64,000 bases of DNA from positions 137,772 to 201,771 of the forward strand of contig JACQZI010000005.1 of NCBI GenBank assembly GCA_016207825.1, given 5' to 3'. Shown here piece by piece: positions 2,157 to 60,908 of this stretch; position 1 is the stretch's first letter; each line of letters starts with the position of its first letter. Both the position numbers and the translations under genes were made by a program. The notes beneath the pieces are model-generated. The model did not search any database. It was not told the origin of the DNA and was given only the letters and a program-made list of their open reading frames with translations. The stretch comes from Planctomycetota bacterium (GTDB taxonomy: Bacteria > Planctomycetota > MHYJ01 > JACQXL01 > JACQZI01).

Positions 2157-3392
2157 TTATTTTCTTTTCGGACGGATGAGTGAAAGAATCGCGTTGCGCC
2201 GGTTATGGGAAAGCATTATCATCAGTATTGACAGCGCGATGTAAAATCCCCCGTAAAAGAGCCGCGCCTTTATTTCAAGGGCCTTCAAATCCGCTTCCGG
2301 CATATTCGGGAATATCGAAGGGAAAAGCAACGGAATAACCAGCTGGGTGGAAAAGAGTATTAAAAGCGCGAACGCCTCCAGCATGGAAAAACGGAAATTG
2401 GAAAGTATGAATATGGCGAAGAGCGATTGGCCCGCGGTCAGGAATATCTCTTCAATCTGCTGTTTATCCAGCTCCATACCCCAGATTGAGCCGCCGGCTA
2501 AAGTATAGGCTATCGGCAGAGAGGCAATAAGAAGCGTCCACTGGTTGACCTTGGAAGAAATAAGCGTCCCGAGCGATGCCCCGGCCATGGCGCGTGTGGC
2601 GAATATTATCGCCACGATAAACTCGGGCGATTCCGAAGCCAGCGGCGCCAGCCACTGGACCAGGATAAACTCATCCACCCCCCAGGTCTTTCCGCTGGCG
2701 ATAAGCCCTTCGGCAAACGGTTCGGCGGAAATATAAATCGTGAATCCGGAAATGGCAAAGAACGCCAGCGTCACTATACATCTATACAGCCTTGAGCCCT
2801 TGCTGAAAAGCTCGACCGGCCCTTCCAGCTCAGGCTCGACATGGTGCGCCTTGCTTGCCGCGATGATGTAAAATATAAAGATTGCCAGGAGCACGACCGA
2901 ATCGATTAACTGGATGCTCCCTTTTATCGGGATGAAAAAGGAATAGAAAGTCGCCGCCAGAAGCGCGAAGAGTTCTATCCGGTGTCCCGGCTCAAGATCG
3001 ATATGCTTTTTCTTAGTGGCAAACCAGTAGGCAAAGAGCACCACCGGCCAGCCCAAGCCTATTAAGAGCCTGTTCGCCCCGGTCATATTGGCGGTGGCGT
3101 AATGGATGTATTTCGGGTCGGTTCCGGCTGACCAGGCAAAATATAAATCCACCGCGTATTCAGGGAGCACCGCGATAAGCGCCAGGAACGCCAAGGCCAA
3201 GGTTTGTGGTATTTCCATCTGGGCAAGCTCCGCCGCCCAGGAAAGCATAAACGCCGCGCCGAAGATTGCCAAGCCCGGAACCAGCGCCTCCCAACCGGGA
3301 CCCAAGTGAATCCCGAGCGCCTTTAAAACGGTCTGCTGTCCGATTAATCCCAAGGACACAACCAGCCACAAAATATGCTTAAAGCGTTCCAT
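2157..3392 (-). CDS. Ca2+/cation antiporter-family membrane protein (Na+/Ca2+ exchanger)
   Basis: A 411-residue integral membrane protein with about ten hydrophobic segments. It has the duplicated alpha-repeat pattern of the CaCA superfamily: the first repeat is around ALIAVLPEYAVDLYF (about residues 90-110) and the second around LAPLASESPEFIVAIIFA followed by GTLISSKVNQWTLL (about residues 245-280). The paired acidic PE(Y/F) motifs are the expected cation ligands. It is expected to move Ca2+ against Na+ or H+ across the inner membrane; the counter-ion cannot be told from the sequence. The gene starts 10 nt after a good -10 box and has no Shine-Dalgarno sequence, so its mRNA is probably leaderless or nearly so. 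miaB follows on the same strand. Confidence 0.88.
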   Translation of the reverse strand: MERFKHILWLVVSLGLIGQQTVLKALGIHLGPGWEALVPGLAIFGAAFMLSWAAELAQMEIPQTLALAFLALIAVLPEYAVDLYFAWSAGTDPKYIHYATANMTGANRLLIGLGWPVVLFAYWFATKKKHIDLEPGHRIELFALLAATFYSFFIPIKGSIQLIDSVVLLAIFIFYIIAASKAHHVEPELEGPVELFSKGSRLYRCIVTLAFFAISGFTIYISAEPFAEGLIASGKTWGVDEFILVQWLAPLASESPEFIVAIIFATRAMAGASLGTLISSKVNQWTLLIASLPIAYTLAGGSIWGMELDKQQIEEIFLTAGQSLFAIFILSNFRFSMLEAFALLILFSTQLVIPLLFPSIFPNMPEADLKALEIKARLFYGGFYIALSILMIMLSHNRRNAILSLIRPKRK

Positions 3393-3402
3393 AAAGCCTA
3401 AC

Positions 3403-3431
3403 TTTATATCAATTCGCTTTTATTTAGTCAA
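3403..3431 (-). promoter_or_regulatory. sigma70-type promoter, near-leaderless, for exchanger gene
   Basis: On the minus strand, TTGACT (3431-3426), a 17-nt spacer and TATAAA (3408-3403). Only 10 nt separate the -10 box from the ATG at 3392, so the predicted transcript has a leader of about 3 nt. Confidence 0.7.
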
Positions 3432-3451
3432 GTAATCCAGAACCACCATTT

Positions 3452-3480
3452 TCACCGCTAAGGCGCAAAGTACGCAGAAA
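3452..3480. repeat. Dispersed GGCGCAAAG-type repeat
   Basis: Contains CACCGCTAAGGCGCAAAG followed by TACGCAGAAA. It is one copy of a short imperfect sequence family found in many intergenic gaps of this window (see the finding on dispersed repeats). It has no coding capacity. Confidence 0.6.
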
Positions 3481-3519
3481 GCATCACGGCTTAAAACCAA
3501 TTGAAATAACAAAAAGACC

Positions 3520-3547
3520 TTGCAAATCGTTTTAGCTATTGTATAAT
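3520..3547 (+). promoter_or_regulatory. sigma70-type promoter for lipoprotein gene at 3598
   Basis: TTGCAA (3520-3525), a 16-nt spacer and a perfect TATAAT (3542-3547). The ATG at 3598 follows after a leader of about 45 nt with an AAGGAG Shine-Dalgarno near 3583, so this gene uses conventional initiation. Confidence 0.65.
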
Positions 3548-4833: not shown

Positions 4834-5994
4834 CTAATGCTCTATCACTATCTTCACTATCTCGCACCTGGAAAAGAGCCGCATCGGCGGTCCCCAAAAA
4901 CCTGTTCCGGAAGTGGTGTATAGGTGAGAGGAATTTACAGTATAGAATCCACATGGATACTTGAAGTTTAACTGCACCAGGATATCCACCGGAGGAATCT
5001 GTCCGGCGTGGGTATGTCCCGAAAGCTGGAGATTCACTCCGTTCTTAATCGCTTCATCGAATATATCCGGCTGGTGTGATAGCAGAATAACGAGCTTGCC
5101 TTTGCCTATCACATTCGGTGTCTTAAGCGCGGATGCCAAATCGCAACCGCTTTCTCCGAAACTCTTTCCGGTATTGTCATCCACCCCGACCAGTTGGATG
5201 AAATCATTCAGCTTTACATTATTATTCCGTAAGACGGTGATTCCGGACTCCTTGGCGGCATTCATAAAGGTATCAATCCCGGCATAGAAATCGTGGTTGC
5301 CTGTAACGGCAAAGACGCCGTATTTCGCGCGTAAACGCCTTAATACGGAGCAGAAATCGGTTCCCCCGCCCGAAGGCGAGGCTCGCCCTAATGGCGGCTT
5401 ACATATATCTGAGTCTACCAGGTCGCCGGTAATCACGATTAAATCCGGATTCTGGCGGTTGGTCTCCTCCACTATCCCTTCCAGCCACGCCTTCGAGCGC
5501 AGTTTATGAAGATGCAAATCCGAAAGTTGGACGATGGTAAACGACGGCACGGATTTAGGTAATCTCAATTCGTCTACCTTTATATGTATAGTCTTCAGTC
5601 TTGGGAAACGGGCGACGTTATAGATGGAATAACTGCCGGTAAGAACCAAGAGAATCAGCGCAGAGATGGTCAGCCAATATCTTTGGAGAGGTGAATGCAG
5701 GAAAAGCCTGCCGATATCCGCGAGCACCAGAAACGTAAACGCCATGACGACCAACCCGACCCAGATGCTTCCCGCGCCAAGAACCGCTTTGGCAAGAAAG
5801 AAATCCGTCCGACGGCTCAAGACTTCTCCTAAGATAAATAACAGGGTAAAGGCAAGCATGGAAATCTGAAGCGCCCGGCGGAAGTTACCCGAAAACGTTA
5901 ACCCGTTTGCCACGCGGGAGTAGGCGAAATAATTCATCCCGAAGAAGATACTTAAGACGATAAGAAGGAACATAACAAAATATACTCTGGACAT
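4834..5994 (-). CDS. Membrane-anchored metallophosphoesterase (YkuE-like)
   Basis: From the ATG at 5994 this is 386 residues. The N-terminal third has four hydrophobic helices. Then comes a calcineurin-type metallophosphoesterase domain with the ordered motifs QLSDLHLH, VITGDLVDS, VTGNHDFYAG, LLSHQPD and LSGHTHAGQ, supplying the Asp, His and Asn ligands of a two-metal centre. Membrane-bound homologues act on phospholipid or lipid-A-type phosphoesters, but the substrate here is unknown. The longer frame begins at a TTG at 6024. I prefer 5994 because a promoter (6009-6037) overlaps that upstream stretch. Between the GD and GNHD motifs lies LGRASPSGGG, encoded by a palindrome (5366-5397) that looks like an in-frame insertion. 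Confidence 0.88.
   Translation of the reverse strand: MSRVYFVMFLLIVLSIFFGMNYFAYSRVANGLTFSGNFRRALQISMLAFTLLFILGEVLSRRTDFFLAKAVLGAGSIWVGLVVMAFTFLVLADIGRLFLHSPLQRYWLTISALILLVLTGSYSIYNVARFPRLKTIHIKVDELRLPKSVPSFTIVQLSDLHLHKLRSKAWLEGIVEETNRQNPDLIVITGDLVDSDICKPPLGRASPSGGGTDFCSVLRRLRAKYGVFAVTGNHDFYAGIDTFMNAAKESGITVLRNNNVKLNDFIQLVGVDDNTGKSFGESGCDLASALKTPNVIGKGKLVILLSHQPDIFDEAIKNGVNLQLSGHTHAGQIPPVDILVQLNFKYPCGFYTVNSSHLYTTSGTGFWGPPMRLFSRCEIVKIVIEH
5366..5397. repeat. Palindromic element inside the metallophosphoesterase gene
   Basis: Outer arms CCGCC/GGCGG and inner arms GGCGAG/CTCGCC form an imperfect palindrome. It translates in frame as GRASPSGG, between conserved phosphoesterase motifs. A related copy with the core GGCGAGCCTCGCC lies in the intergenic region at 54031-54054. 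Confidence 0.7.
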
Positions 5995-6008
5995 ATTTAA
6001 CAGGAATG

Positions 6009-6037
6009 ATTTTAGAAAAAGCAACCAAGCCGGTCAA
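6009..6037 (-). promoter_or_regulatory. sigma70-type promoter for metallophosphoesterase gene
   Basis: Minus strand: TTGACC (6037-6032), a 17-nt spacer and TAAAAT (6014-6009). The ATG at 5994 is 14 nt beyond the -10 box. This gives a leader of about 8 nt with no Shine-Dalgarno. Confidence 0.65.
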
Positions 6038-8212: not shown

Positions 8213-10300
8213 TTACTGCTTCGGCTTAGCCAATAATTCATTAAACTCCGCCCTGAGCGGGGCGTAATCATCAGCCAGCTTCTTAATCAGCTCTTTATAA
8301 CGCGGGTCGTCTTTCACCACCTTAAAGTGGTCGGAGATAAACCAGGCGTAACTGGGGCCGCCTGATGCGATTGCCTTTTCGAGCCATTCAATAGACTTTT
8401 CCTTTTCTCCCTGCAGGGCGTAAAGCGCCGCCATCTCCTGCATGATGCCCCATGATTCCCTCGCGGAAAAGCGCGCCATTTCCCCTTGCGCTTCCTTGTA
8501 TTTTCCTTGTCCGGTATAAATCCATGCCCTGACCTCGCTCGCGCTTAACGCCTGCGGGTCGAGCGCCGCCAGTTTGCCCAATACCTTTTCGGCGGAGGCG
8601 ATATCACCCAGCCAGACATAATTCATGGCAATCTGGGTAAGCTCATCCACTCCGTGCGCCCGGCCTTCAGCCAGCTTATTCGCGTTCAATCCCTCACTTA
8701 TCCTGCCGGCGAAGAAGAGGTTAATCGCCCGGCGCATATAAAAATTATAGGTCGGGTCAATCCTGCCGATAAGTTCCAGGACTTCCAGCGCCGTCTCGAA
8801 TTCGCCCATATAAAAGGCATAGCGCGCCATATAAATCAAAGACGGGACATATCTTCTATCAAGCTTAAAGCATTGGATATATTCACGCGTCGCCTCCAGC
8901 CGCTTTCCTTTGGCTTCCAGCGTATAGGCAAGGGCGTGATGGGCTTCTATCAGGTTTTTATCCAGTTCCAGCGATTGCCGCGCGGTTTTCTCCGCTTTTT
9001 CCAGCCACGCGGTATCATTGGAAAAATTCCACCAGAAGTGCAGGGCATACGCATAAGCTAGCGAGGCGTGGGCGCGGGCGAATTTGGGGTCAAGCGTCAC
9101 AGCCGTTTCCAGGCAGCTTATCGCGGAATTGTTGCTTTCCTTGGTCACCTCGCCGGAAAGATAGGCAACGCCTTTCAGGTAATTGTCATAAGCGGGGATA
9201 TTTTCCGTCCCGTATTTGAAGATATCCTTGTTGTCCATAATCTGCAGGCGAAGGGCGTTTGCCACCTGGCGCGAGACCTGGTCAAGGAGATTTAAGGTAT
9301 CGGTATCCTTTCCCTGGTATGCCTGCACCACCGGGCGCTCCCTGCCATAGGCATCGATGATTTCCACATTCACCCGCAACTGCCCTTCGGAACGGATAAA
9401 GCTCCCGCTGATTATTTTGGAAACCTGAAGCTCCTCTTTTAAGGCTTCCGCTTTCCATTCCTTGCCTTTATACGGAAGCGTGGCGTTAAGCGGGCGGATG
9501 ACGAGCGATTCAATCTTCAGGAGCTGGACATTCAGCTCGGAGGTAATGGCAATCGATAAATAATCGGATTCCTTGTCGTTATTCAGGTTGCGGAAGGGCA
9601 TGACGGCAATGGCGTCATAGGGCTTGGTGAAAAGGAATACTTTTAATAAGACCGCGGCGATGATAAAGACAAGTATCAGAGGGATAACGACCGCCTGTTT
9701 CTTAAAGAGTTTTACGGTGCGCCTTGTAATCCTGCCTAAAAACGATAGCGGGCGGACTTCCGGCGACTGCGTCAATTCAAAGAGCTCCATCAGCTCGACA
9801 TTGCCTTTAAGCTCGCGCTCGCCGATGGATTTGAAATCAAAGCGCTTGTCTATTTTAATCAGGTCACGCAGGGTGCGTGAGATGGTGATAATATCCGGAC
9901 CGGCATTGGATTTTATCCGCTCGGCCATATTTACCGCGTCACCGAAGATATCATTGCCGCTTTCGGAAACCAGCCCGTAATGTATCCCGATACGAATGTG
10001 CAGGTCTTTATCTTCAGTTTGCGTTTGGCGGACTTGGGCAAGTTTCGCCTGCATGCTAAAGGCGGCTTTCAGGGCGTCGGTCGGGCGTTCAAAGACCGCC
10101 ATAATGCTGTCTCCGATGGTTTTTACGACGCGGCCGTTGGCATGCTCGACTATCGGGAAAAGGTATTGGTTGTGCCGCTTTATCATTTCAAGGCCGGCCG
10201 TGTTGCCCTGCGAAGAGAAATATTTAGATGAACCGACGATGTCGGTAAAAAGGATGGTGCGCGCCCTGATGAACGCTGATGAGTGGCTGTCAATACCCAT
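8213..10300 (-). CDS. Class III adenylate/guanylate cyclase with TM helix, TolB-like domain and TPR repeats
   Basis: A 695-residue sensor/regulator. Residues 12-175 form a class III cyclase domain: RARTILFTDIVGSS carries metal ligand D20, GDSIMAVFE carries D64, and GDAVNMAERI is the conserved helix. Residues about 202-224 are a single membrane helix. Residues about 228-330 resemble the TolB-like/FlgO-type domain often following cyclases (IAVMPFRNLNN, SKIISGSFIRSEGQL). From about 350 to the end are TPR helices (LDPKFARAHASLAYAYA, LEAHHALAY, LDPQALSASE). The cyclase is N-terminal and cytoplasmic, so the TolB/TPR part should lie outside the inner membrane. The true cyclic nucleotide is unknown. 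The mRNA is predicted near-leaderless (promoter 10311-10339). Confidence 0.9.
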   Translation of the reverse strand: MGIDSHSSAFIRARTILFTDIVGSSKYFSSQGNTAGLEMIKRHNQYLFPIVEHANGRVVKTIGDSIMAVFERPTDALKAAFSMQAKLAQVRQTQTEDKDLHIRIGIHYGLVSESGNDIFGDAVNMAERIKSNAGPDIITISRTLRDLIKIDKRFDFKSIGERELKGNVELMELFELTQSPEVRPLSFLGRITRRTVKLFKKQAVVIPLILVFIIAAVLLKVFLFTKPYDAIAVMPFRNLNNDKESDYLSIAITSELNVQLLKIESLVIRPLNATLPYKGKEWKAEALKEELQVSKIISGSFIRSEGQLRVNVEIIDAYGRERPVVQAYQGKDTDTLNLLDQVSRQVANALRLQIMDNKDIFKYGTENIPAYDNYLKGVAYLSGEVTKESNNSAISCLETAVTLDPKFARAHASLAYAYALHFWWNFSNDTAWLEKAEKTARQSLELDKNLIEAHHALAYTLEAKGKRLEATREYIQCFKLDRRYVPSLIYMARYAFYMGEFETALEVLELIGRIDPTYNFYMRRAINLFFAGRISEGLNANKLAEGRAHGVDELTQIAMNYVWLGDIASAEKVLGKLAALDPQALSASEVRAWIYTGQGKYKEAQGEMARFSARESWGIMQEMAALYALQGEKEKSIEWLEKAIASGGPSYAWFISDHFKVVKDDPRYKELIKKLADDYAPLRAEFNELLAKPKQ

Positions 10301-10310
10301 ATATTAAAAA

Positions 10311-10339
10311 GTTATACAAAGCCTCAGCGTAAGGGTCAA
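10311..10339 (-). promoter_or_regulatory. sigma70-type promoter, near-leaderless, for cyclase gene
   Basis: Minus strand: TTGACC (10339-10334), a 17-nt spacer and TATAAC (10316-10311). The ATG at 10300 begins 10 nt downstream of the -10 box, with no Shine-Dalgarno. Confidence 0.7.
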
Positions 10340-18317: not shown

Positions 18318-19085
18318 CTACTCGTTACTCTCCAAGAAATCCAATCTCCTCGTCTTTTCCGTAATCACTGTCTGCGCCCCGGTAGTCTGGTAAGCCAGAA
18401 GGATAATCTGGGTGCGGTATTCTCCCTCATACAACAACGCCTTGACCAAGCCGGAGAAAGGGAGGGGCGGGGCATACCAGATAGCGCCTTCATAGCCATC
18501 TTCATCCGGTATCAGGTTTACCTTATCGCACTTAAGCCAGGTTTCTTTATTGTTTACGTTTATCTGCACCTCATCGGTTTCCTTTTTACCCGAATGTTCC
18601 GGCTGGGTAAAAGGAATCGGCGGGATGCTCCGGGTCATTTCATAGAAGAGCCCTTCCGCGCTCAGGCGCGTCCGCACTTCCCAGCGCTTCAGCTCTATTT
18701 CCACCGCCTGCATGTTATTGAATTTCATGATTAGCTTGAAGGGCTGGGGATTGCCTTTTTCATCCACCATGAATTTGAAGACACGTTGCTGGTCGGTGCC
18801 GTCGTTTATGACGTATTCCACCCAGAAATACTCGGCATCTTTCCAGAGCGCCTTGCTGGTGATGCTGATTTTGACGATGCCTTCGGAAAGCTGGCTGGGA
18901 TTGGCTTCCGGGCTGTATTTGACATAGCGCCGGAGGCGGTAGGTGACGGATTCGCCGATGGAGAAGGAGGAAGGCAAGGCAAGCCGTGAAGCGGCGGGGA
19001 CAAATTCCGTAACAACCAGCTTCTCCACCCCCTTACAGCCGAACGCTGACAAAACAAACAATAGGCAAAGGCATAATTTCTTCAT
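18318..19085 (-). CDS. Lipoprotein, first gene of the surface cluster
   Basis: A 255-residue lipoprotein (MKKLCLCLLFVLSAFGC, Cys17 lipidated). The mature part is beta-rich, with pairs such as GESVTYRLRRYVKY, GIVKISITSKALW and EYFWVEYVIND, reminiscent of DUF3108-like periplasmic proteins, though I cannot claim membership. It is 23 nt upstream of the giant barrel gene and so may serve in its assembly or anchoring. The transcript from the promoter at 19095-19123 has at most 2-3 leader bases, so this gene heads the operon and is probably translated from a leaderless mRNA. Confidence 0.8.
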   Translation of the reverse strand: MKKLCLCLLFVLSAFGCKGVEKLVVTEFVPAASRLALPSSFSIGESVTYRLRRYVKYSPEANPSQLSEGIVKISITSKALWKDAEYFWVEYVINDGTDQQRVFKFMVDEKGNPQPFKLIMKFNNMQAVEIELKRWEVRTRLSAEGLFYEMTRSIPPIPFTQPEHSGKKETDEVQINVNNKETWLKCDKVNLIPDEDGYEGAIWYAPPLPFSGLVKALLYEGEYRTQIILLAYQTTGAQTVITEKTRRLDFLESNE

Positions 19086-19094
19086 GGCAAGTCA

Positions 19095-19123
19095 ATTATA
19101 AATTTAGATTGTAACGGGGTCAA
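19095..19123 (-). promoter_or_regulatory. Near-leaderless promoter of the surface operon
   Basis: Minus strand: TTGACC (19123-19118), a 17-nt spacer and a perfect TATAAT (19100-19095). The ATG at 19085 lies 9 nt beyond the -10 box. It is divergent from the promoter at 19158-19186, with 34 bp between the two -35 boxes. Confidence 0.78.
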
Positions 19124-26179: not shown

Positions 26180-27349
26180 TTATTGGCGCGAAGAAACCCA
26201 GTTTTTGCCGAATAATTCCTTGTTTATGACTATTCGCTGGATTTCTGACGTGCCTTCGTAAATTTCCGTTACTTTGGCGTCGCGGAAAAACCTCTCCACC
26301 GCAAACTCCTTGGTATAACCCATCCCGCCGTGTATCTGGACGGTTTCCTTGGCCGCCTTATTGCATACGGTCGAGGCGAATAATTTCGCCATGCAAGCCT
26401 CTTTTATATGGGGCTGTTTTTTATCTTTGAGCAAAGCCGCCTGGTAAGTCGAAAGCCGGGCGGCATTTATTTCTGTGGCCATATCGGCTATCTTCCACTG
26501 TATTGCCTGGAATTCCGCCAGTGCCTTGCCGAATTGTTTCCGCTCCTGCGCGTATTTCATCGCGGCGTCAAGGCATGCCTGGGCAATACCAACAGACTGC
26601 GCGGCAATCCCGATTCGGCCGCTGTTTAAAAGTTCCATCGCGAGATTAAACCCCTTGTTTTCCTCGCCCAGCATGTTTTCCGCCGGCACGGCGCAATCTT
26701 CCAAGACAATCTCGCTCGCTTTGGCGCCTTTTACGCCCATTTTTTCCTCGATTGTGCCAAGCTTAAAACCCTTGAATGACGGCTCAACCAAAAACGCGCT
26801 GATGCCTTTGCCCCTCAAAGATTTATCCGGATTGGTCCGGGCAAAGACAATCGAAACACTGGCAATCGGGGCGCTCGTGATAAAAATCTTGTTGCCATTA
26901 AGGATATATTGATTGCCTTTCTTGTCCGCTTTGGTAATAAGCGAAGCGGCATCGCTTCCGGAAGCCGGCTCGGTCAAGGCGTATGCCCCGATAATTTCCC
27001 CACCGCCAAGCTTGGGCAGGTATTTCTTTTTCTGCTCGGTTGTCCCATATTTTACCAGTGCGTTGCAAACAAGAGAATTATGGACGGACATGGTTACCGA
27101 GGTTGAGGCACAGACGCGGCTGATTTCTTCCAGGACCAAGACAAGTGAAAACGTATCCAGCCCCGCCCCGCCGAATTCATCCGGCACGATAATCCCCCAA
27201 AAGCCCAGTTCCGCCAGCTTCTTGATTACTTCCTGCGGTATCCGCTCCTCGCGGTCTATTTGCTTGGCGTATTTGGAAAGGGTTTCTTGGGCAAATTCGC
27301 GTGCGGTATCCCTGATTAGCTTCTTCTCTTCATTCAATTCGAACAACAT
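26180..27349 (-). CDS. Acyl-CoA dehydrogenase (short/branched chain type)
   Basis: A 389-residue flavoprotein from the ATG at 27349. The upstream frame to 27391 overlaps the promoter (27360-27387) and is rejected. Family signatures are present: YALTEPASGSDAASL, a GRIGIAAQSVGIAQ helix, and near the C-terminus QIHGGMGYTKEF and IYEGTSEIQR, where the Glu of YEGT is the catalytic base of short-chain members. It would oxidise an acyl-CoA to the 2-enoyl-CoA, passing electrons to ETF. With MeaB immediately downstream (1 nt gap), a role beside a B12 acyl-CoA mutase is likely, for example on isobutyryl-, 2-methylbutyryl- or butyryl-CoA. Chain length cannot be settled by eye. Confidence 0.92.
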   Translation of the reverse strand: MLFELNEEKKLIRDTAREFAQETLSKYAKQIDREERIPQEVIKKLAELGFWGIIVPDEFGGAGLDTFSLVLVLEEISRVCASTSVTMSVHNSLVCNALVKYGTTEQKKKYLPKLGGGEIIGAYALTEPASGSDAASLITKADKKGNQYILNGNKIFITSAPIASVSIVFARTNPDKSLRGKGISAFLVEPSFKGFKLGTIEEKMGVKGAKASEIVLEDCAVPAENMLGEENKGFNLAMELLNSGRIGIAAQSVGIAQACLDAAMKYAQERKQFGKALAEFQAIQWKIADMATEINAARLSTYQAALLKDKKQPHIKEACMAKLFASTVCNKAAKETVQIHGGMGYTKEFAVERFFRDAKVTEIYEGTSEIQRIVINKELFGKNWVSSRQ

Positions 27350-27359
27350 AAGGTCGTTT

Positions 27360-27387
27360 ATTATAGGATTAATTAGCCCACTGTCAA
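27360..27387 (-). promoter_or_regulatory. Near-leaderless promoter for acyl-CoA dehydrogenase/meaB
   Basis: Minus strand: TTGACA (27387-27382), a 16-nt spacer and a perfect TATAAT (27365-27360). The ATG at 27349 is 10 nt past the -10 box, with no Shine-Dalgarno. It fixes the start of the dehydrogenase. Confidence 0.78.
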
Positions 27388-27523: not shown

Positions 27524-27551
27524 TTGACCGATTCGGATACTTCGATATAAT
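27524..27551 (+). promoter_or_regulatory. Promoter with very short leader for the FAD/Fe-S oxidoreductase
   Basis: TTGACC (27524-27529), a 16-nt spacer and TATAAT (27546-27551). The ATG at 27565 is 13 nt downstream. An earlier in-frame ATG at 27520 lies upstream of the -35 box, so it cannot be used from this promoter. Confidence 0.72.
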
Positions 27552-27564
27552 CTATTTAAGACGT

Positions 27565-41001: not shown

Positions 41002-41031
41002 TTGACACGTCAAATAATCGGATGATAGAAT
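41002..41031 (+). promoter_or_regulatory. sigma70-type promoter for cyclophilin gene
   Basis: TTGACA (41002-41007), an 18-nt spacer and TAGAAT (41026-41031). AAGGAG lies 6 nt before the ATG at 41052. Confidence 0.65.
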
Positions 41032-41051
41032 AATATTAAAAAGGAGCCTTT

Positions 41052-41630
41052 ATGATTAAACGAATTGTTTTATCTGCCCTGATTTTAAGCCTGATTGCTC
41101 TGGTTTCCGCCTGTTCATCGACTGATAACAAGGCGACGGATTTGCCAAAGGAGAAGGAAACCATTGCCATCATAAAGACAACTATGGGCGAGATGACCTT
41201 CAAGTTCTTCACCAAAGACGCGCCGTTATCTTGCGCTAATTTCATCAAGCTCGCAAAGAGCGGATTCTACAATAACCGCGAGTTCTACCGAGTGGTCAAG
41301 GGACACGTCATCCAGGCCGGGGTCGGCGAAGGCGAAGGGGTTGATTACACCGTTAAGGCGGAATTCAATAAGAACCCTCATATCACCGGCGCGGTCGGAA
41401 TGGCGCGCGCCGAAGACCCGGACAGTGCTTCAACCGAATTCTACATCTGCCACACCCCGCGTCCGCACCTGGACGGCAGATACACGGTCTTCGGGCAGCT
41501 GACAGACGGATTCGATGTCCTGGATAAAATAGGCAATACCGAGGTCGAGGAGAAAATGATTGAAGGCGTTGCCTTTAATAAGCCAAAAGTGCCGGTTAAG
41601 ATTCTTTCTATCACCATTGAAGAAAGATAA
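41052..41630 (+). CDS. Cyclophilin-type peptidyl-prolyl isomerase, lipoprotein
   Basis: A 192-residue protein with a lipoprotein signal (MIKRIVLSALILSLIALVSAC). The cyclophilin domain includes TTMGEMTFKFF, DAPLSCANFIKLAKSGFYNN, FYRVVKGHVIQAG, GAVGMARAEDPDSASTEFYIC and YTVFGQLTDG. The active-site Arg after FY, and the Phe in STEFYI, are retained. It should assist folding of exported proteins in the periplasm. It stands alone under its own promoter and faces the spermidine-synthase-like gene tail to tail. Confidence 0.92.
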   Translation: MIKRIVLSALILSLIALVSACSSTDNKATDLPKEKETIAIIKTTMGEMTFKFFTKDAPLSCANFIKLAKSGFYNNREFYRVVKGHVIQAGVGEGEGVDYTVKAEFNKNPHITGAVGMARAEDPDSASTEFYICHTPRPHLDGRYTVFGQLTDGFDVLDKIGNTEVEEKMIEGVAFNKPKVPVKILSITIEER

Positions 41631-41688: not shown

Positions 41689-44022
41689 TATTAATAGGAT
41701 TGTTCCTGACAGGTTTAAGAACGCGATAAAGACGCAGGTCTGGAATATCCCGAAAAGCGGGATGAATACGACACCGGTAACTAACGCCCCCAAAAACGCG
41801 CCGAAGTGGTCCGCGCTGTCTATCAAGCCCGATGCCTTACCGATTCTCGGCTCGGATTCGAGATACAGGCGACTGGCAACCGGATAAGCCAATCCGGTGA
41901 TAATCCCGCATAGCATAATCAAAAGGATAAACGGGTATTCTCCCATTCCGGCATCTTCAATAAGCTTTATCGCCGGAGTTAAGAGCAAGGCGAATATTAC
42001 CAGCGCCAGATTAATAAACGCTAAAACCCTTTTCCATCTTAACGCTTTGGTTATAATAAAACGGTTGGAGATAATTCCGCCCAGCGCCAGCCCGAGCATA
42101 AACAAGGCGATTATCAGGCCTATTTTCTGGTAGATATATCCGTAGATATTCTGGAAGGCGAAGAGGAGCATAAGTTCAGCGGATAATCCGGCCAATCCGA
42201 TGGCAAAGATTGAATATAAACTATTAAACCTTTGGTGATGAGCTGCCCTTTTGGGAGTTATAAACACATAGGCCAATCGCAATAAGAATAATATTCCGAT
42301 GATTGCCAATACCCACCAGAATTTCAGGCTTTGCAATATCTTAAAAAATACGCCAGGCTCAGTCCCGTAACCGCTCATAATCGTATCCCAGAGGATAAGG
42401 TTAAAGAAATAACTGATAGGCTGTAAATCGGTATTGACATAGCTTTCTCTTTTTTCTTTAAATACTTGTTCCATAAAGGCAAGCTGTGAAGACTGGATAT
42501 AAAGCTCGTATTGGGCGGGCGAGATGAATCTCTCCGTAGCGATATTGCGCTCTTTAAAACGTTTGTCGAGCGCCACGATATCAAATGTAATAACATTATC
42601 GGAATCCGTGGCAAAGAAGCATGCCCGGTCGCCCGGCGTTACCAGGATATTCTTAAACTCCGATTTCAAGGTGTCATAAAGCGAGCCAACATAAACCAGA
42701 ACCGTCGGACTGAAGTAATTGACAGCCGAAGATATACTCGTCACCACCACCCCGCCCGGCGCAAGAATCCGTTTTGCCTCGTGGAAAAAGTCCGTGGTGT
42801 AGAATCTATTTATCATGGCGGTTGAAGGGTCTGGTAAATTGAGAATTACCATATCAAATTTATCCTGAGCTTGTCTAAGGACATGTTTTACAAAATACCG
42901 CCCGTCTGAATAATGGATGAACAATCGAGAATTATCTTTCGCGTTAATGAGGGGGCTATCCCTCTGGCGCAGATATTTTCCGACCAGCTCAGTCATCTTC
43001 GGGTCGAGCTGGACATAATGCAACTCCCGGATTGAAGGGTGTTTTAAGATTGGGGAAAGCATGCCCTCGATTCCGCCTCCGATTAAGAGGACTCTTTTCG
43101 GTTCCGGATGCTGGGTGAGCAGGAAATGCGCCAGCGGCTCGTGGATATAATCATCAGGAAAGCTTGAAACCAACTGCCCGTTGCCGTAGAGCTGGTACTG
43201 CTCCCCCAATTTCCCGATGACGAGGTTTTCGTATTTGGAGTCCACGCTTTCCAGCAGTTCTTCTCCCGGGCGGAAGAATTCCCATCTCTTCTTGACCGAA
43301 TACTGATGCAGTGAATTTGCATATGTAAATATTCCCAACAGATTTGCCAGAAAGAATAAAATAGCCAGCCCGGCCAGAATCTTCCGTGAAACTCCACTTA
43401 ATATAATAGTGCTTGCCAGAAGCAGGCTGTTTGATATCATGATAATGGTGAAAGAATTGAAATGCTCAACGAGGAGGAAGGTAAAAACAACCCCGCCCAG
43501 TAAACTGCCCAATGCTTCGTAGATATACACCCACCCGATTTGGATAGCAAAATCCCCCCCCTCACCCACCCCGCTCCCGCCAGTGGAGAGGGAAAAAGAA
43601 GTTGTATACACCTTGCACAACAAAGGAAATATAATGCCGATAAAGATACTGAAAGGAACGACCAGGAAAAAGCTTAAGTAAACCATCGGGATAAGCGGAA
43701 TGGGCTGTCCGGATTGGATGGTAATAATGCCTCTGGCAATCCTGATAAAATATACCATAAGCGGCAGGACGGAGGTCATGGCGATAATGACAATAACCAG
43801 GACCGGATAAAGATTCTTAAGCCTGTCGATAAAGAAGGCGGTTAAGCCGGCTCCCAAGGTGATGCCGATGAGCCAAACACCGAAGATGATGCCAAGAGCG
43901 ACTTCATTCCCCTGGAACACGACCAGCAATTCGCGCGCCATAACCGCCTGGGCGATGAGCGCGGAAAAGCCTATCAGGATAAAACCGATAACCAAATTAA
44001 TGCGGTTTTTTTCGATGGGCAT
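41656..44022 (-). CDS. Membrane-embedded spermidine-synthase-like protein
   Basis: A 788-residue protein from the ATG at 44022. The -10 box at 44030-44035 lies within the longer frame (to 44058), so that start is rejected. About eight N-terminal helices are followed by a methyltransferase-fold spermidine-synthase-like domain (VLLIGGGIEGMLSPI, HYVQLDPKMTEL, DGRYFV, VILNLPDPST), then about six more helices. Homologues in Planctomycetes and other bacteria are annotated as fused-MFS spermidine synthases, but polyamine synthesis by them is unproven. The repeats at 42863-42881 and 43552-43592 add LRQAQD and STGGSGVGEGGD in frame. The C-terminal nine residues come from a dispersed repeat. Confidence 0.8.
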   Translation of the reverse strand: MPIEKNRINLVIGFILIGFSALIAQAVMARELLVVFQGNEVALGIIFGVWLIGITLGAGLTAFFIDRLKNLYPVLVIVIIAMTSVLPLMVYFIRIARGIITIQSGQPIPLIPMVYLSFFLVVPFSIFIGIIFPLLCKVYTTSFSLSTGGSGVGEGGDFAIQIGWVYIYEALGSLLGGVVFTFLLVEHFNSFTIIMISNSLLLASTIILSGVSRKILAGLAILFFLANLLGIFTYANSLHQYSVKKRWEFFRPGEELLESVDSKYENLVIGKLGEQYQLYGNGQLVSSFPDDYIHEPLAHFLLTQHPEPKRVLLIGGGIEGMLSPILKHPSIRELHYVQLDPKMTELVGKYLRQRDSPLINAKDNSRLFIHYSDGRYFVKHVLRQAQDKFDMVILNLPDPSTAMINRFYTTDFFHEAKRILAPGGVVVTSISSAVNYFSPTVLVYVGSLYDTLKSEFKNILVTPGDRACFFATDSDNVITFDIVALDKRFKERNIATERFISPAQYELYIQSSQLAFMEQVFKEKRESYVNTDLQPISYFFNLILWDTIMSGYGTEPGVFFKILQSLKFWWVLAIIGILFLLRLAYVFITPKRAAHHQRFNSLYSIFAIGLAGLSAELMLLFAFQNIYGYIYQKIGLIIALFMLGLALGGIISNRFIITKALRWKRVLAFINLALVIFALLLTPAIKLIEDAGMGEYPFILLIMLCGIITGLAYPVASRLYLESEPRIGKASGLIDSADHFGAFLGALVTGVVFIPLFGIFQTCVFIAFLNLSGTILLIVTKTQRHKKI
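42863..42881. repeat. TCCTGAGCTTGTCTAAGGA repeat inside the spermidine-synthase-like gene
   Basis: A 19-bp imperfect palindrome. In frame it gives LRQAQD between VKHV and KFDMVILNL, two parts of a motif that is normally contiguous. Confidence 0.7.
43552..43592. repeat. CTCTCCACTGGCGGGAG-type repeat inside the same gene
   Basis: On the minus strand it reads CCCTCTCCACTGGCGGGAGC and then a G-rich run. It translates as LSTGGSGVGEGGD in a loop between membrane helices. Sequences of this kind are widespread as intergenic repeats in many bacteria. Confidence 0.65.
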
Positions 44023-44029
44023 TAAATCA

Positions 44030-44058
44030 ATCATAAGTACTCTTAGACAAGAGGTCAA
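44030..44058 (-). promoter_or_regulatory. Leaderless promoter of the spermidine-synthase-like gene
   Basis: Minus strand: TTGACC (44058-44053), a 17-nt spacer and TATGAT (44035-44030). The ATG at 44022 lies only 7 nt beyond the -10 box, so transcription should begin at or next to the start codon. Confidence 0.68.
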
Positions 44059-45356: not shown

Positions 45357-45947
45357 TCAGCAAAGATATTTTATCATGATAAAACCAAGAATAGCCAGAA
45401 TGACAAACGCGATGGTCAACAAGTTGAAATATTTATCGATAAAGATTTTGGCTTTGGGTCCGATAAAATAAAGAATAGCGGCAACCAGGAAAAACCGTGC
45501 CGAACGGCTGATGGCGGAAGCAACGACGAACACGGTGAAATCCACCCTGAATACGCCTGCCGCAATGGTGAAAACCTTATAAGGGATCGGGGTGAACCCG
45601 GCGACCATAACCGCCCAGAAGGCGTTTTCATCGTAGAGCTTACCGACTTTCTGGAATGAATCGTTTAACTGATATAAATCAATAATGGGCCTACCGATGA
45701 TTTCATACAACTGCCAGCCGATAAGATAACCGAGACATCCTCCGGCAACCGAACCGATTGAGCAAATCAAGGCATACCGGAACGCCTTGAGCGGAATGGC
45801 GATAACCAACGCAACCAAAAGGACATCCGGCGGCACCGGGAAGAAGGATGATTCGGCAACGGCCAGCAGGAACAATGCCCATACGCCGTAAGGAGTCTGT
45901 GCCCAGGATAAGACCCAATCATAAAGCCGTTTTATGGGATTTTTCAT
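45357..45947 (-). CDS. DedA/YqaA-family (VTT domain) membrane protein
   Basis: A 196-residue protein from the ATG at 45947; the TTG at 45953 is less likely. It has the re-entrant DedA/VTT signature with AESSFFPVPPDVLLVALVIA near the start, GSVAGGCLGYLIGW, and FTPIPYKVFTIAAGVFRVDFTVF, which matches YqaA-type members. DedA proteins are implicated in lipid flipping and membrane homeostasis. Promoter 45960-45988 puts the -10 box 12 nt from the ATG. The zinc-ribbon gene follows after 27 nt on the same strand. Confidence 0.88.
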   Translation of the reverse strand: MKNPIKRLYDWVLSWAQTPYGVWALFLLAVAESSFFPVPPDVLLVALVIAIPLKAFRYALICSIGSVAGGCLGYLIGWQLYEIIGRPIIDLYQLNDSFQKVGKLYDENAFWAVMVAGFTPIPYKVFTIAAGVFRVDFTVFVVASAISRSARFFLVAAILYFIGPKAKIFIDKYFNLLTIAFVILAILGFIMIKYLC

Positions 45948-45959
45948 ATCCAAGAAAGT

Positions 45960-46009
45960 ATTCTATAACGAGCCGATTTTAATTGCAATTTATTTGCTGC
46001 CTGTATAAT
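45960..46009. promoter_or_regulatory. Divergent promoters sharing one TTGCAA hexamer
   Basis: TTGCAA at 45983-45988 is its own reverse complement. Leftward it pairs with TAGAAT (45965-45960) across 17 nt to serve the YqaA gene. Rightward it could pair with TATAAT (46004-46009) across 15 nt to serve the ABC operon, whose ATG at 46043 has GGGGG 7 nt upstream. The rightward spacing is short, so that half is less certain. Confidence 0.5.
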
Positions 46010-55352: not shown

Positions 55353-56684
55353 TTACGCTTTCTCCAATATAGACACTGTGACATAAGTTCCGGTTCCCGC
55401 GTGGCTGTGGATGGCGCCGCGCTTGGCGTTCTTCACCTGGATGGTATCATCTCCCAGATGTTTCTTCATCGAGCCCTGCAATTGCCAAAGCGCGAAGACC
55501 GCCTGCATCAAGCCGGTCGCGCCGACCGGATGACCGCAGGCAATCAAACCGCCTGAAGGGTTGACCGGAATTTCGCCCTGGCGCGGGAGCTTGCCCAAAC
55601 CGTAATCTATATTCGGGAGGAAAGGCGCGCCGGATTCCACGAACTTGCCGCCTTCTCCGTATTTGCACAGCCCCATATCCTCGTAGGTCTGTATTTCCGA
55701 TGAGGTATAGGCATCATGCAGTTCCACGAAATCTATTTCCTTTAACGGGTCTTTAATCCCGGCATGCTCATAAGCGAGCTTGGAAGCGGTGCGTCCCGCG
55801 CGGAATGAATGTATGCCCGGATATTTAAGGTCTTTGTAATCGGAGGCTTTTTCATGAGCCAGGAGAATCACTTTCTTGTGGGGACGGTCGGACATACGCA
55901 TGGCATCCGTGCCGCGGCCGATGCCGGTGACCTTGACGAGGTTCTTCGGTTCCTTGCCGGTGGCTTTCTTGATTTTCTTTATGCCGTCTTCGCTGGCGAG
56001 AATGCCGCATGCCGCGCCGTCGCTCATCACGCAGATATCAAGTAAGGTCAGCGGCCAGGCGACCATATCCGAATTACGCACATCCTTGACGGTCAGGCGT
56101 TTCCTTTTCTGGGCGTATTTATTATGGAAGGCGTTGATATGGTTCTTGACGGAGACCTTTGCCAGCTGTTCCACGGTCGTGCCGAATTCCTGCATGTGCC
56201 GGACGACCATCATGGCGTAATAGCCGGAATAAAATCCGCCCACCGGATAATCAAAGCTGACATCCGAGGCGAGCGCGATGAATTCATTCCCTTTCCAGGT
56301 ATTGACGTGGGACATGGTTTCGAATCCGTAAGCGACGCAGGTATCCATGACGCCGGATGCGATATTTTTATAGGCCTCCTGGAAACAGACTCCGCCGGTC
56401 GCGCCGCCTGCCTCAACTCGGTGGCTGGGCAGGGGGCAAAGGCCAAGGTAATCCTGAACCATAATGCCTGACATCAACTGGCGCGCGAAGTGGTCGGAAA
56501 AATAAGAGGCAACGCTTCCGTCAAACACTTCCGGCGCTTGTTTGTTTTCAAGCCCGATATCCTTCAGGGCATAGTCATAGGCTTCTTTCACCATGGGTTG
56601 GAATGTCACGTCAGGGCGGGCCTTGGCAAATTTGCTTATGCCGCCTGAAACAAAGTAGACATCCCTTGTCTTTTTAAACGCCAT
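55353..56684 (-). CDS. Thiolase-fold protein lacking the nucleophilic cysteine
   Basis: A 443-residue thiolase-superfamily protein in the SCP2/DitF-like class, with AAAGGAGG 6 nt before the ATG. C-terminal motifs GHPVGATG and IHSHAGTGTYV are present. At the usual nucleophile, the family's xACAS(G/T)G is replaced by VEAGGATGG, with Gly94 where the Cys should be; C100 lies six residues later. The second catalytic Cys site, in the IHSHAGTG segment, is also not a Cys. It is therefore unlikely to run the Claisen cleavage of ordinary thiolases and may instead be an aldolase- or scaffold-type subunit acting with the DUF35 protein next door. It follows the small mutase subunit on the same strand. Confidence 0.88.
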   Translation of the reverse strand: MAFKKTRDVYFVSGGISKFAKARPDVTFQPMVKEAYDYALKDIGLENKQAPEVFDGSVASYFSDHFARQLMSGIMVQDYLGLCPLPSHRVEAGGATGGVCFQEAYKNIASGVMDTCVAYGFETMSHVNTWKGNEFIALASDVSFDYPVGGFYSGYYAMMVVRHMQEFGTTVEQLAKVSVKNHINAFHNKYAQKRKRLTVKDVRNSDMVAWPLTLLDICVMSDGAACGILASEDGIKKIKKATGKEPKNLVKVTGIGRGTDAMRMSDRPHKKVILLAHEKASDYKDLKYPGIHSFRAGRTASKLAYEHAGIKDPLKEIDFVELHDAYTSSEIQTYEDMGLCKYGEGGKFVESGAPFLPNIDYGLGKLPRQGEIPVNPSGGLIACGHPVGATGLMQAVFALWQLQGSMKKHLGDDTIQVKNAKRGAIHSHAGTGTYVTVSILEKA

Positions 56685-56741
56685 AAATTCCTCCTTTACC
56701 CCGAACCCCTGCCTGCGGCAGGCAGGCTTGTGGTGCGGGGT

Positions 56742-57174: not shown

Positions 57175-58782
57175 CTACCAGAAAATCGGCGGTTCTTTGT
57201 ATTCGCCGAAGACCTTCTTTAATGTATTGATAATTTCGCCCAGGGTTGTATAGCACTTGGCCGCTTCGAGAATTTTGGGCATCAGGTTATCCGTGCCGCG
57301 CGCGGCAGCTTTAATTGCTTCCAGGCATTTCTTTACTTTCGCGTTATCGCGGCGCCGGCGCAGTTTCTTTAAGCCCTGGTTCTGGTCGTGTTCCACCTTG
57401 GTGGAAATCTTAAGAAGCTCGATATCGGGCGGCGTATCCTCGACGAATTCGTTTATGCCGATGATAATACGCTTTTTCGCTTCGATTTCTTTCTGGTATT
57501 GGTAAGCGGAGCTGGCGATTTCCCGCTGGAAGAAACCCTGCTCGATTGCCGGAATCACCCCGCCGAAGGAATCTATCTTCTTAAAATATTCCTCGGCCGC
57601 CGCTTCCATCTTATTGGTAAGCGCTTCGACATAATACGAGCCGCCCAGGGGGTCGATTGTATTGGTGACGCCCGATTCATAGGCGATAATCTGCTGGGTG
57701 CGCAGGGCAATCCGGACCGCGTGTTCGGTCGGGAGAGCCAGCGTTTCATCCATGGAGTTTGTATGCAGGCTCTGTGTCCCGCCTAAAACGGCCGAGAGTC
57801 CCTGGTAAGCCGTGCGGACGATGTTGTTTTCCGGCTGTTGCGCAGTCAGCGTGCATCCGGCGGTCTGGGTATGGAAACGCATGAGGTAAGAACGCTGGTC
57901 TTTGGCCTTGTATTTATCGCGCATCCGTTTGGACCAGATACGGCGCGCCGCGCGGTATTTGGCGATTTCCTCGAAGAAATCCAGGTGTGAATTAAAGAAG
58001 AACGACAGGCGCGGGGCGAATTTATCCACATCCATCCCGGCGGCGATGCCTGCTTCCACATAGGCGAATCCATCGGCTAATGTAAACGCCAACTCTTGCA
58101 CGGCGGTCGAGCCGGCTTCGCGTATGTGATAACCGCTGATGGAAATCGTATTCCATTTCGGAACGTGGTCCGCGCAGAAAGCAAGTATATCCGTGATAAT
58201 GCGCATCGAAGGCTTGGGCGGGAAAATCCAGGATTTCTGCGCGATGTATTCTTTTAGGATATCATTTTGTATCGTACCCCTGAGCTGCGTTGAAGGCACG
58301 CCCTGCTTTTCTCCTACCGCGATATAAAAAGCCAGCAAGACCGCGGAAGGCCCGTTTATGGTCATCGAGGTGGAAACCTTGTCAAGCGGGATGCCGCTAA
58401 AAAGCGTTTCCATGTTTTCAAGCGAAGCGATTGCCACGCCGCAACGGCCGACTTCGCCTTTTGCCATTGTGTCGTCCGAATCGCGCCCGTAAAGCGTGGG
58501 AAAATCAAAGGCGACCGATAAACCGGTCTGTCCGTGCGCAAGCAGGAATTTATAGCGCTTATTGGTGTCCTTGGCGGTGCCGAACCCGGAAAACTGGCGC
58601 ATGGTCCAGAGCTGGCCGCGGTACATATCCGGATAGACTCCGCGTGTATAAGGGAATTTGCCGGGCGCACCCAAATCGCGCTGGTAATCAAAGCCGGGGA
58701 TATCAGCAGAAGTGTAAACGACTTTTTGGGGCGTAGGCGTTGATTTGGTTTCCGGCTTTGCTATGACAGTTTTATCATTCAT
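57175..58782 (-). CDS. B12-dependent acyl-CoA mutase large subunit, isobutyryl-CoA-mutase-like active site
   Basis: A 535-residue TIM-barrel radical mutase from the ATG at 58782. The promoter at 58793-58821 lies inside the longer frame (to 58821), so that start is rejected. Family motifs: [81 protein letters not shown] and [13 protein letters not shown]. Methylmalonyl-CoA mutase uses Tyr89 and Arg207 around the substrate. The aligned residues here are Phe (in TMRQF) and Gln (in YIAQK), as in isobutyryl-CoA mutase. With a separate B12 subunit the set fits IcmA/IcmB-like, rather than MutA/MutB. The MeaB at 25 kb is its likely chaperone. Confidence 0.92.
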
Positions 58783-58792
58783 CGGATAAATA

Positions 58793-58821
58793 ATGATATC
58801 TAAAACAGAATGGGCTGTCAA
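58793..58821 (-). promoter_or_regulatory. Near-leaderless promoter of the acyl-CoA mutase operon
   Basis: Minus strand: TTGACA (58821-58816), a 17-nt spacer and TATCAT (58798-58793). The ATG at 58782 is 10 nt beyond the -10 box and has no Shine-Dalgarno. It is divergent from the promoter at 58856-58884. Confidence 0.75.
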
Positions 58822-58930: not shown

Positions 58931-58987
58931 ATGAGTTGCGGTAAAAAAGGCTGCGGATGCGGCTCCAAAAAAGGCAAAAAGAAATAG
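58931..58987 (+). CDS. Cysteine/lysine-rich 18-residue peptide
   Basis: The frame reads MSCGKKGCGCGSKKGKKK and a TAG stop. It has its own promoter and a GGAAGGGGG ribosome site 8 nt before the ATG. Three cysteines (C3, C8, C10) set among Gly and Lys suggest a small metal- or nucleic-acid-binding peptide. The next gene, Ppx/GppA, starts 62 nt later, so it may be the first cistron of that transcript. The leader string GGGGGTGACTGAAATGA is nearly the same as the one before the lipoprotein at 60986. No homologue is known to me; the peptide could also be a leader for regulation. Confidence 0.6.
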   Translation: MSCGKKGCGCGSKKGKKK

Positions 58988-59049
58988 TTAAAACACCCCT
59001 ATGCCCCGTTTCCCCGATGCCTGTCGGGGGACGGGGCTTAATCACGCTT

Positions 59050-59973
59050 ATGCATAAACTCGCGGTCATCGATTTAGGCACCAATTCGGTAAAGCTGCTC
59101 ATAGCTAAAGTTAATCCACCCCCTCATTTCAGGATTGTTCCGCTTTATGAACGGGTTGTCATCACCAGAATCGGCCGGAACTTGAAAACTACGCAACGGC
59201 TTGACAAATCCGGTTCCAATAAAACATTACAATTGATAAAAGGTTTTACGCGCCAATGCCGCAAGAAAAACATCAGCGACATATTTATCCTGGGAACAAA
59301 CGCATTGCGGGAGGCAAAAGATTCCGCTGAATTCATCCATGAGCTCAAAAGGGAAACAGGGCTAAGGATTAAGGTCGTCTCAGGCCGCGAGGAGGCATAT
59401 TTTTCATACCTTGGCGCTGTTGATTCCTTACGCAAAGAGAAAAACCTGGTGATTGATATCGGCGGCGGCAGCACGGAGCTTGTTTATGGAATAGGACCTA
59501 AAGTAAAATGGTGGAAGAGCATACCGATGGGCGCGGTGAAACTGACGGAATTATGCGTTCATTCAGACCCGATATTGAAATCCGATTACGATAAACTATT
59601 GAAGCAAATCAAACGCCGACTTCCGGCCAAAGCAACGCCTAAACCGGTTAATTGTTACGGGGTGGGCGGAACCGTAGTCACCCTGGCGGCTGTGGCCAAA
59701 AAACTAAAGAAACTGACTCCAGGAAAAATAGAAGGCTATCTATTGACCAGAAACAAGGTAACCGAATTGCTGAAATTATTATGCCGGATGAATATTACCC
59801 AGCGCATGGAAATAAACGGGATTGAAAAAGAAAGGGCTGATATCATCCCGGCAGGAACAGCAATCCTTTCGGCAATCATGGATTTGTGGAACATAAAAAC
59901 CATTAAGGTATCATCCCGGGGTTTGCGTTACGGCTTTATCAAAAACAACGCACTCATTAAGCCAAAAGATTAA
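59050..59973 (+). CDS. Ppx/GppA-family phosphatase
   Basis: 307 residues from the ATG at 59050; the frame to 58957 begins inside the peptide gene. Two ASKHA-type subdomains: VIDLGTNSVKLLIAK (phosphate 1), TNALREAKDSAEF, KVVSGREEAYFSYLG, LVIDIGGGSTELVYG (phosphate 2) and GVGGTVVTLAAV. The enzyme hydrolyses polyphosphate or pppGpp. It is short and lacks the C-terminal HD domain of E. coli Ppx, as in many small bacterial forms. A separate promoter starts the next gene right at its end (59976). Confidence 0.9.
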   Translation: MHKLAVIDLGTNSVKLLIAKVNPPPHFRIVPLYERVVITRIGRNLKTTQRLDKSGSNKTLQLIKGFTRQCRKKNISDIFILGTNALREAKDSAEFIHELKRETGLRIKVVSGREEAYFSYLGAVDSLRKEKNLVIDIGGGSTELVYGIGPKVKWWKSIPMGAVKLTELCVHSDPILKSDYDKLLKQIKRRLPAKATPKPVNCYGVGGTVVTLAAVAKKLKKLTPGKIEGYLLTRNKVTELLKLLCRMNITQRMEINGIEKERADIIPAGTAILSAIMDLWNIKTIKVSSRGLRYGFIKNNALIKPKD

Positions 59974-59975
59974 GC

Positions 59976-60004
59976 TTGACAAATTCGATATAATAATGTA
60001 TATT
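59976..60004 (+). promoter_or_regulatory. Near-leaderless promoter of the gene at 60015
   Basis: TTGACA (59976-59981), a 17-nt spacer and TATATT (59999-60004). The ATG at 60015 is 10 nt past the -10 box, with no Shine-Dalgarno. Confidence 0.68.
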
Positions 60005-60014
60005 GGCCCGCAAT

Positions 60015-60908
60015 ATGGGCATAAAGAAAATATTGCTCTGGGTGGGAATTACCGGATCAATAGGATTGCTTTTCGGCATCTGGTTCAATATCCTTTATAC
60101 CGGAGGCCAAAACAATAATACTTCGGAAACTAATCCTAAAAACGATTCGGTTAATGTAAACAACAATTCTAACGAAACAAACTCAGCCGCGACAAATCGT
60201 TACCCTGGCTCTACTAAAGAATCCAGGCAAAACAAGCCCAAAAACAATACCACCCTGGCCGCTAAGGGAAAACCGGCTGTATCTCCTAATCCGGCCGCGG
60301 CCAACATTCAGAACGCGGAAAGAGATTTCTATTCGCCTAAAAACCTGGACCGTTTAATCGGCAATACCCCGTTAAGCACGGCACTGTCAATCGCCCATGG
60401 TTTGCCGGACGAAACCATCCAGGAGATTTTAAATAAAATCCCCGAAGATTACCTGAAAGAAAAACTGGCAACCGCCGAACTGGGATTTTCCAACGAAGAG
60501 TTAAAAGACAATAACCCCCTTGAATTAATCAACTCGCTTCTTAAAGTTTCCGAGACCGGAGCCGTTACAGATACGGCTGAAGTCTTTTTCACCTCCCTCG
60601 TCAACCCAAACGATAACAGCCCGGGTTACGCGACCCCATATTTCTACGAAAACACCAAAAAGATTTTTGCCTGTTTCAAGAACGAAGGAACCATGGCTGA
60701 TTTTAAGGAGGTGGTCTCCTTATGGAAAAACACCTCAACCGGCAAGGTGACCTATTGGGGGAAACAAATGATTAATCCGTGGTCAAAATGGAATTACGTC
60801 TGGCTGGAATATAAATCCAACTGGCCTAAGGGTTCTTACATAGTTTCCTTTTATAAAAACGCCAGCAGTTCAAAATGCCTGGCGCAGGGAAGGTTTGAGG
60901 TAAAATAA
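60015..60908 (+). CDS. Membrane-anchored protein with Asn/Ser-rich linker, function unknown
   Basis: 297 residues from the ATG at 60015; the TTG at 60003 overlaps the -10 box. One N-terminal helix (KKILLWVGITGSIGLLFGIWFNIL) is followed by a low-complexity segment (NNNTSETNPKNDSVNVNNN), then a helical part (LIGNTPLSTALSIAHGLPDET, IPEDYLKEKLATAELGFS) and a beta-rich C-terminal domain (WSKWNYVWLEYKSNWPKG, SYIVSFYKNASSSKCLAQGRF). It is probably periplasmic. No family recognised. Confidence 0.75.
   Translation: MGIKKILLWVGITGSIGLLFGIWFNILYTGGQNNNTSETNPKNDSVNVNNNSNETNSAATNRYPGSTKESRQNKPKNNTTLAAKGKPAVSPNPAAANIQNAERDFYSPKNLDRLIGNTPLSTALSIAHGLPDETIQEILNKIPEDYLKEKLATAELGFSNEELKDNNPLELINSLLKVSETGAVTDTAEVFFTSLVNPNDNSPGYATPYFYENTKKIFACFKNEGTMADFKEVVSLWKNTSTGKVTYWGKQMINPWSKWNYVWLEYKSNWPKGSYIVSFYKNASSSKCLAQGRFEVK

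Follow-up and report, generated by a model that had tools for sequence, protein, structure and literature searches.

Promoters a few nucleotides before start codons suggest leaderless or near-leaderless mRNAs alongside Shine-Dalgarno initiation in a planctomycete genome

Background

Leaderless genes occur widely among bacteria (PMC3160421, PMC9581028), and their mRNAs are translated by 70S or otherwise Shine-Dalgarno (SD)-independent initiation (review PMC9031893). In Deinococcus-Thermus nearly a third of genes have a -10 motif some 6-7 bp ahead of the open reading frame, and a -35 or other sequence has only a weak influence on transcription (PMC12340547). A survey of 953 bacterial genomes described 'TA-led' leaderless genes (Zheng et al. 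2011, PMC3160421), and Planctomycetes do not appear in its list of bacterial groups with such genes. In the part of PMC9581028 that summarizes GeneMarkS-2, leaderless transcription is predicted for 21.6% of bacterial species and for up to 40% of transcripts, and no Planctomycetes are named there. An upstream non-SD nucleotide bias in the single planctomycete examined elsewhere was ascribed to leaderless mRNA and/or S1, the mechanism being left open (PMC5397173). Our literature search turned up no study of leaderless mRNA in transcription-start maps of planctomycetes.

The window analysed here is a stretch of 64,000 nt of DNA from an uncultured planctomycete. Its source genome encodes a TypA that shares 95% identity with the protein of 'Candidatus Brocadiia bacterium DeMMO3_52' (Planctomycetota), and the next relative likewise belongs to the planctomycetes.

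Results

Starts in the window

A preliminary description of the window had proposed that two initiation modes run side by side, with ten starts preceded by a promoter and no SD site and eight others by strong SD sites. Direct reading agreed with this at all ten positions, each having a sigma70-type -35/-10 pair directly upstream and none an SD site of useful length (Table 1). The -35 elements are of the TTGAC/TTGCA type, the spacers measure 16-17 nt and the -10 boxes end 7-14 nt before the start codon. For 45947, a reading of the -10 as TATAGA was dropped, since TAGAAT with a 17-nt spacer fits better. The -10 boxes had also been thought to settle several start-codon choices and, from the open reading frames, longer frames do cross the promoter at seven of the ten starts (5994, 27349, 27565, 44022, 45947, 58782 and 60015). 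The start at 19085 is supported independently because its protein opens with a lipoprotein-type signal peptide, as judged by eye.

Table 1. The window and the starts read within it; positions are those of the window, except in the first row.
Feature	Position	Strand	Details
Window	G000:C5:137772-201771		source genome 2.89 Mb, 97.6% complete
Na/Ca exchanger-family protein	3390..3431	-	-35 TTGACT (3426-3431), 17 nt, -10 TATAAA (3403-3408), 10 nt, ATG 3392; no SD
Metallophosphatase	5992..6037	-	-35 TTGACC (6032-6037), 17 nt, -10 TAAAAT (6009-6014), 14 nt, ATG 5994; no SD
Adenylate/guanylate cyclase with TPRs	10298..10339	-	-35 TTGACC (10334-10339), 17 nt, -10 TATAAC (10311-10316), 10 nt, ATG 10300
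Protein beginning MKKLCLCLLFVLSAFGC	19083..19123	-	-35 TTGACC (19118-19123), 17 nt, -10 TATAAT (19095-19100), 9 nt, ATG 19085
Acyl-CoA dehydrogenase	27347..27387	-	-35 TTGACA (27382-27387), 16 nt, -10 TATAAT (27360-27365), 10 nt, ATG 27349
NuoG-like 2Fe-2S + NAD(P)-oxidoreductase fusion	27524..27567	+	-35 TTGACC (27524-27529), 16 nt, -10 TATAAT (27546-27551), 13 nt, ATG 27565
SD-led contrast, peptidyl-prolyl isomerase-like by sequence	41002..41054	+	GGAG before ATG 41052
Spermine synthase-like membrane protein	44020..44058	-	-35 TTGACC (44053-44058), 17 nt, -10 TATGAT (44030-44035), 7 nt, ATG 44022
DedA/VTT-domain protein	45945..45988	-	-35 TTGCAA (45983-45988), 17 nt, -10 TAGAAT (45960-45965), 12 nt, ATG 45947
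SD-led contrast, thiolase-like by sequence	56682..56704	-	AAAGGAGG before ATG 56684
Methylmalonyl-CoA mutase	58780..58821	-	-35 TTGACA (58816-58821), 17 nt, -10 TATCAT (58793-58798), 10 nt, ATG 58782
Protein with N-terminal hydrophobic anchor (by eye)	59976..60017	+	-35 TTGACA (59976-59981), 17 nt, -10 TATATT (59999-60004), 10 nt, ATG 60015

The eight contrast starts (6922, 21296, 31574, 41052, 55292, 56684, 58931 and 60986) do carry SD sites, of the GGAG/GGAGG type or GGGGGTGA. The 16S 3' tail of this genome has an intact anti-SD, GGATCACCTCCTTTCT, and a full-length S1 is present, so both initiation modes can coexist.

Several other features of the window were recorded. Short-distance promoters stand back to back, within about 220 nt, between the divergent genes for the acyl-CoA dehydrogenase and the NuoG-like 2Fe-2S/NAD(P) oxidoreductase fusion (27347-27567). 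At 58931-58987 (+), a Cys/Lys/Gly-rich open frame of 18 residues, MSCGKKGCGCGSKKGKKK, follows a strong SD site, and the sister genome has a counterpart of 21 residues, MSCGKKGCGCGCGSKKGKKKK, which adjoins the same gene and whose SD is similar; this is possibly a metal-binding micropeptide. Two very large secreted-type proteins with repeat-like domains, of 1765 and 1846 aa, are encoded at 12997-18294 (-) and 33246-38786 (-). In the latter gene a weak -10, TATAAG, overlaps a GGAG site 10 nt before the ATG, a possible intermediate between the leaderless and SD modes. A search of the window for an RNA family or tRNA found none.

The distance peak

For a gene-based census we called 888 genes with a simple codon-usage script in 1.25 Mb of the 2.89-Mb genome, with 40 genes called in the window. 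Promoters were scored with a sigma70 matrix, those of at least 8 bits being taken as strong, and d denotes the number of nucleotides between the -10 box and the start codon. In this sample 104 of the 888 genes (11.7%) had a strong promoter with an ATG at d 6-11, against 2-4% of genes in the other 6-nt bins from d 12 to 65 and 1.5% at d 0-5. The counts by distance were 18, 27, 22, 27, 15 and 8 from d 6 through d 11, then 6, 6, 8 and 3. The range of 7-14 nt originally proposed is therefore only partly upheld: the peak covers d 6-11, with 7-9 commonest, but d 12-14 lies near background, and the starts at 5994, 27565 and 45947 are less secure for that reason. The metallophosphatase gene (5994), outside the genome-wide peak, would have a short predicted leader of about 8 nt.

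An equal frequency of such boxes in shuffled upstream sequence had been named in advance as evidence against the proposal, and the dinucleotide shuffles of upstream DNA gave 7.9 +/- 2.2 genes at d 6-11 (maximum 13) against the 104 observed. Within the window, 12 of the 40 genes had a promoter of at least 8 bits at d 6-14, compared with 0.6 +/- 0.7 in 200 dinucleotide shuffles (maximum 3). The rate for internal in-frame ATGs was 4 per 1000, against 72, and the same method applied to E. coli K-12 found one gene in 198 (0.5%). The whole-genome scan that had been suggested, for TTGACN-N16/17-TATNAT-N7-14-ATG, returned 54 matches. Reversing the pattern gave 3, and requiring the ATG at d 37-44 gave 27.

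The excess over background amounts to about 9% of genes at thresholds of 6-8 bits. This figure (at least one gene in eleven) is a lower bound, because the scan misses weaker promoters and those of other sigma factors. The density of the window is not representative, since 8 of its 40 genes (20%) fall at d 6-11 versus 11.7% in the genome sample.

Proposed initiation and leader length

From the make-up and placing of these promoters, we consider it very likely that the housekeeping sigma factor gives rise to leaderless or near-leaderless mRNAs (0 to about 5 nt) alongside SD initiation. The housekeeping sigma factor would use ordinary bipartite promoters whose -10 lies 6-11 nt before the start codon, mostly at the heads of transcription units. 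Transcription normally begins some 7 nt downstream of the -10, and RNA polymerase can shift its start site by a few nucleotides. We infer that at d 6-11 the mRNA would have its 5' end at the A of the AUG or no more than about 5 nt ahead of it, which leaves no room for an SD site. The ribosome and initiator tRNA would then recognize the 5'-terminal AUG through a 70S-type or other SD-independent route, and the other genes of the genome would have conventional SD leaders. A second, upstream promoter could add leadered transcripts.

As a variant of this explanation, and not exclusive of it, the selected state could be a short real leader (about 3-8 nt), the ribosome using a few 5' nucleotides. The spread of the peak, wider than the 6-7 bp of Deinococcus radiodurans (PMC12340547), and the value d = 10 in five of the ten window genes speak for this. 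However, d 6-7 is also frequent and, with a flexible choice of start by the polymerase, a start at the A of the AUG fits most genes, so that we regard selection for such leaders as possible but rather unlikely. A pyrimidine at -1, which would point to a start at the A of the AUG, was equally frequent in short-distance and SD genes (74% versus 76%), and because this bias is common to SD genes the sequence does not separate leaders of 0 from those of 1-5 nt.

SD absence and position in the transcription unit

Among the 119 short-distance starts (all start codons included), an SD was found at the start in 4, compared with about 50% of the other genes, counting sites up to 60 nt from the start. 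As a raw tally within the short-distance set, the start codons were ATG in 104, GTG in 11 and TTG in 4. The upstream neighbour was divergent in 46% of the short-distance genes versus 18% of the others, and a same-strand neighbour lay closer than 40 nt in 9% versus 29%. Short-distance starts thus favour genes heading a transcription unit.

If the starts had been misassigned, these would be ordinary promoters with normal leaders, and translation would begin at an SD-led codon downstream. Choosing starts by coding score did put some of them downstream, such as 5859 for 5994. Against this, an SD-like site was present within 60 nt on either side in just 19 of the 119 short-distance genes, versus 50% of the rest, protein domains open right at several of the claimed starts, and orthologs align from residue 1. 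Misassignment would also not yield a sharp peak in the distance to the ATG, and we consider it improbable.

The -35 element and conservation in relatives

A correctly spaced -35 accompanied 34% of the -10-like boxes at d 6-10 versus about 12% elsewhere, and these boxes exceeded background only as far as they had a -35. As the excess is confined to boxes with a -35, the promoters are bipartite and not of a -10-only kind.

In the sister species, six of the eight testable promoters lie at the same distance from the ATG. All 36 of 36 positions of the -35 and all 36 of 36 of the -10 are identical in the six conserved pairs, versus 74% of spacer and 78% of upstream-flank positions; the pairs are few, and one of the six was realigned by hand (the script chose a GTG, and the next codon was assumed to be the ATG). 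One pair has kept the -35, the -10 and the distance although nearly the whole spacer has changed. The distance is unchanged in the sister species for the acyl-CoA dehydrogenase (27349) and stays at 7 for the spermine synthase-like membrane protein (44022). For the DedA/VTT-domain protein (45947), d = 12 is kept in a relative (L002) while those 12 nt differ in their letters. The promoter position is therefore under evolutionary constraint at the genus level. Together with the positional peak, the exclusion of SD sites and the bias to unit heads, this supports the view that two initiation modes operate side by side.

The boxes could instead be AT-rich ribosome-binding enhancers of the S1 type. 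This ambiguity has been raised for Planctomycetes and others (PMC5397173), and S1 is present in the genome. An S1 site, however, would not require a TTGAC 16-18 nt upstream or show both hexamers perfectly conserved around a diverged spacer, and the excess boxes do have the correctly spaced -35, which makes such enhancers very improbable. That AT-rich upstream sequence resembles promoters by chance has a negligible probability: intergenic DNA is about 59% AT and weak promoter-like sites are common, but such sites were far fewer in shuffles, at internal ATGs, at other distances and with the reversed pattern, and the shuffle test refutes it.

Orthologs of methylmalonyl-CoA mutase (58782) have d 10 within the genus, and in two further genera of the order they have d = 8 without an SD. 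For 27565, the distances in three genomes of the order, in orthologs with 47-55% identity, are 7, 8 and 9, although the sister species has 18. In GC-richer, more distantly related members of the class, SD-like sites tend to be present instead. A systematic comparison at the order level, covering 139 reciprocal best hits (genomes G038 and G113; partial genomes, median identity 46%), found no significant per-gene conservation of leaderless status (1 of 18 pairs).

Distribution across the phylum

In the four genomes of the same order, pattern matches at d 7-14 and d 37-44 numbered 123 and 67 (binomial p about 6e-5), and in eight genomes of another family of the phylum (f46) they numbered 132 and 111, which is not significant. 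By the gene-based method, G038, of the same order, had 6.3% of genes at d 6-11 versus about 1-2% elsewhere, and G113, of family f46, a weak 2.9% versus about 1.2%. Pattern ratios, read by eye, gave no short-distance excess in many other members of the phylum. Genome G161, from the same class but outside the order, had 12 short-distance matches versus 2 long-distance, which suggests that it may also use the short-distance arrangement.

Perhaps near-leaderless genes came into heavy use as a lineage-specific feature of this order, with full -35/-10 promoters 6-11 nt before the AUG and selected leaders of 1-5 nt, unlike the -10-only, 6-7 nt type of Deinococcus, and with most of the phylum lacking it. 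We put this forward tentatively, as the less likely course of events.

Discussion

This is a known phenomenon in a well-supported instance, which in the literature covered had at most been hinted at for this lineage. The density of such genes had been called notable, which is fair for Planctomycetota and not for bacteria as a whole. A planctomycete order joins the bacteria with a large predicted set of leaderless genes, and full bipartite promoters can sit at this short distance. The arrangement also gives a usable rule by which start codons can be corrected in genomes of this order, and the contrast within the phylum, where this order is enriched and many others are not, opens a route to studying the gain and loss of an initiation mode.

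Of the known systems, the GeneMarkS-2 leaderless genomes, as summarized in part of PMC9581028, share with this planctomycete a mixture of SD and leaderless genes. Deinococcus-Thermus has in common with it a -10 a few nucleotides before the start, the lack of an SD, SD-led genes alongside and promoter-based corrections of starts. It differs in that the planctomycete peak spans 6-11 nt, the excess boxes have a -35 and the genes concerned make up at least 9% of the total; the -10 excess independent of a -35 that marks the Deinococcus type was not observed. The likeness to the TA-led genes extends to a TATAAT-like signal whose first T lies about 12 bp before the start, to coexisting SD genes and to an initiation mode that changes between related genomes (PMC3160421). 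The marks of that type were found here as a -10 excess at a fixed distance, SD absence with an intact anti-SD, enrichment at the heads of transcription units and conservation in close relatives. In contrast to the planctomycete of PMC5397173, leaderless transcription is indicated here by a bipartite promoter set at a fixed distance.
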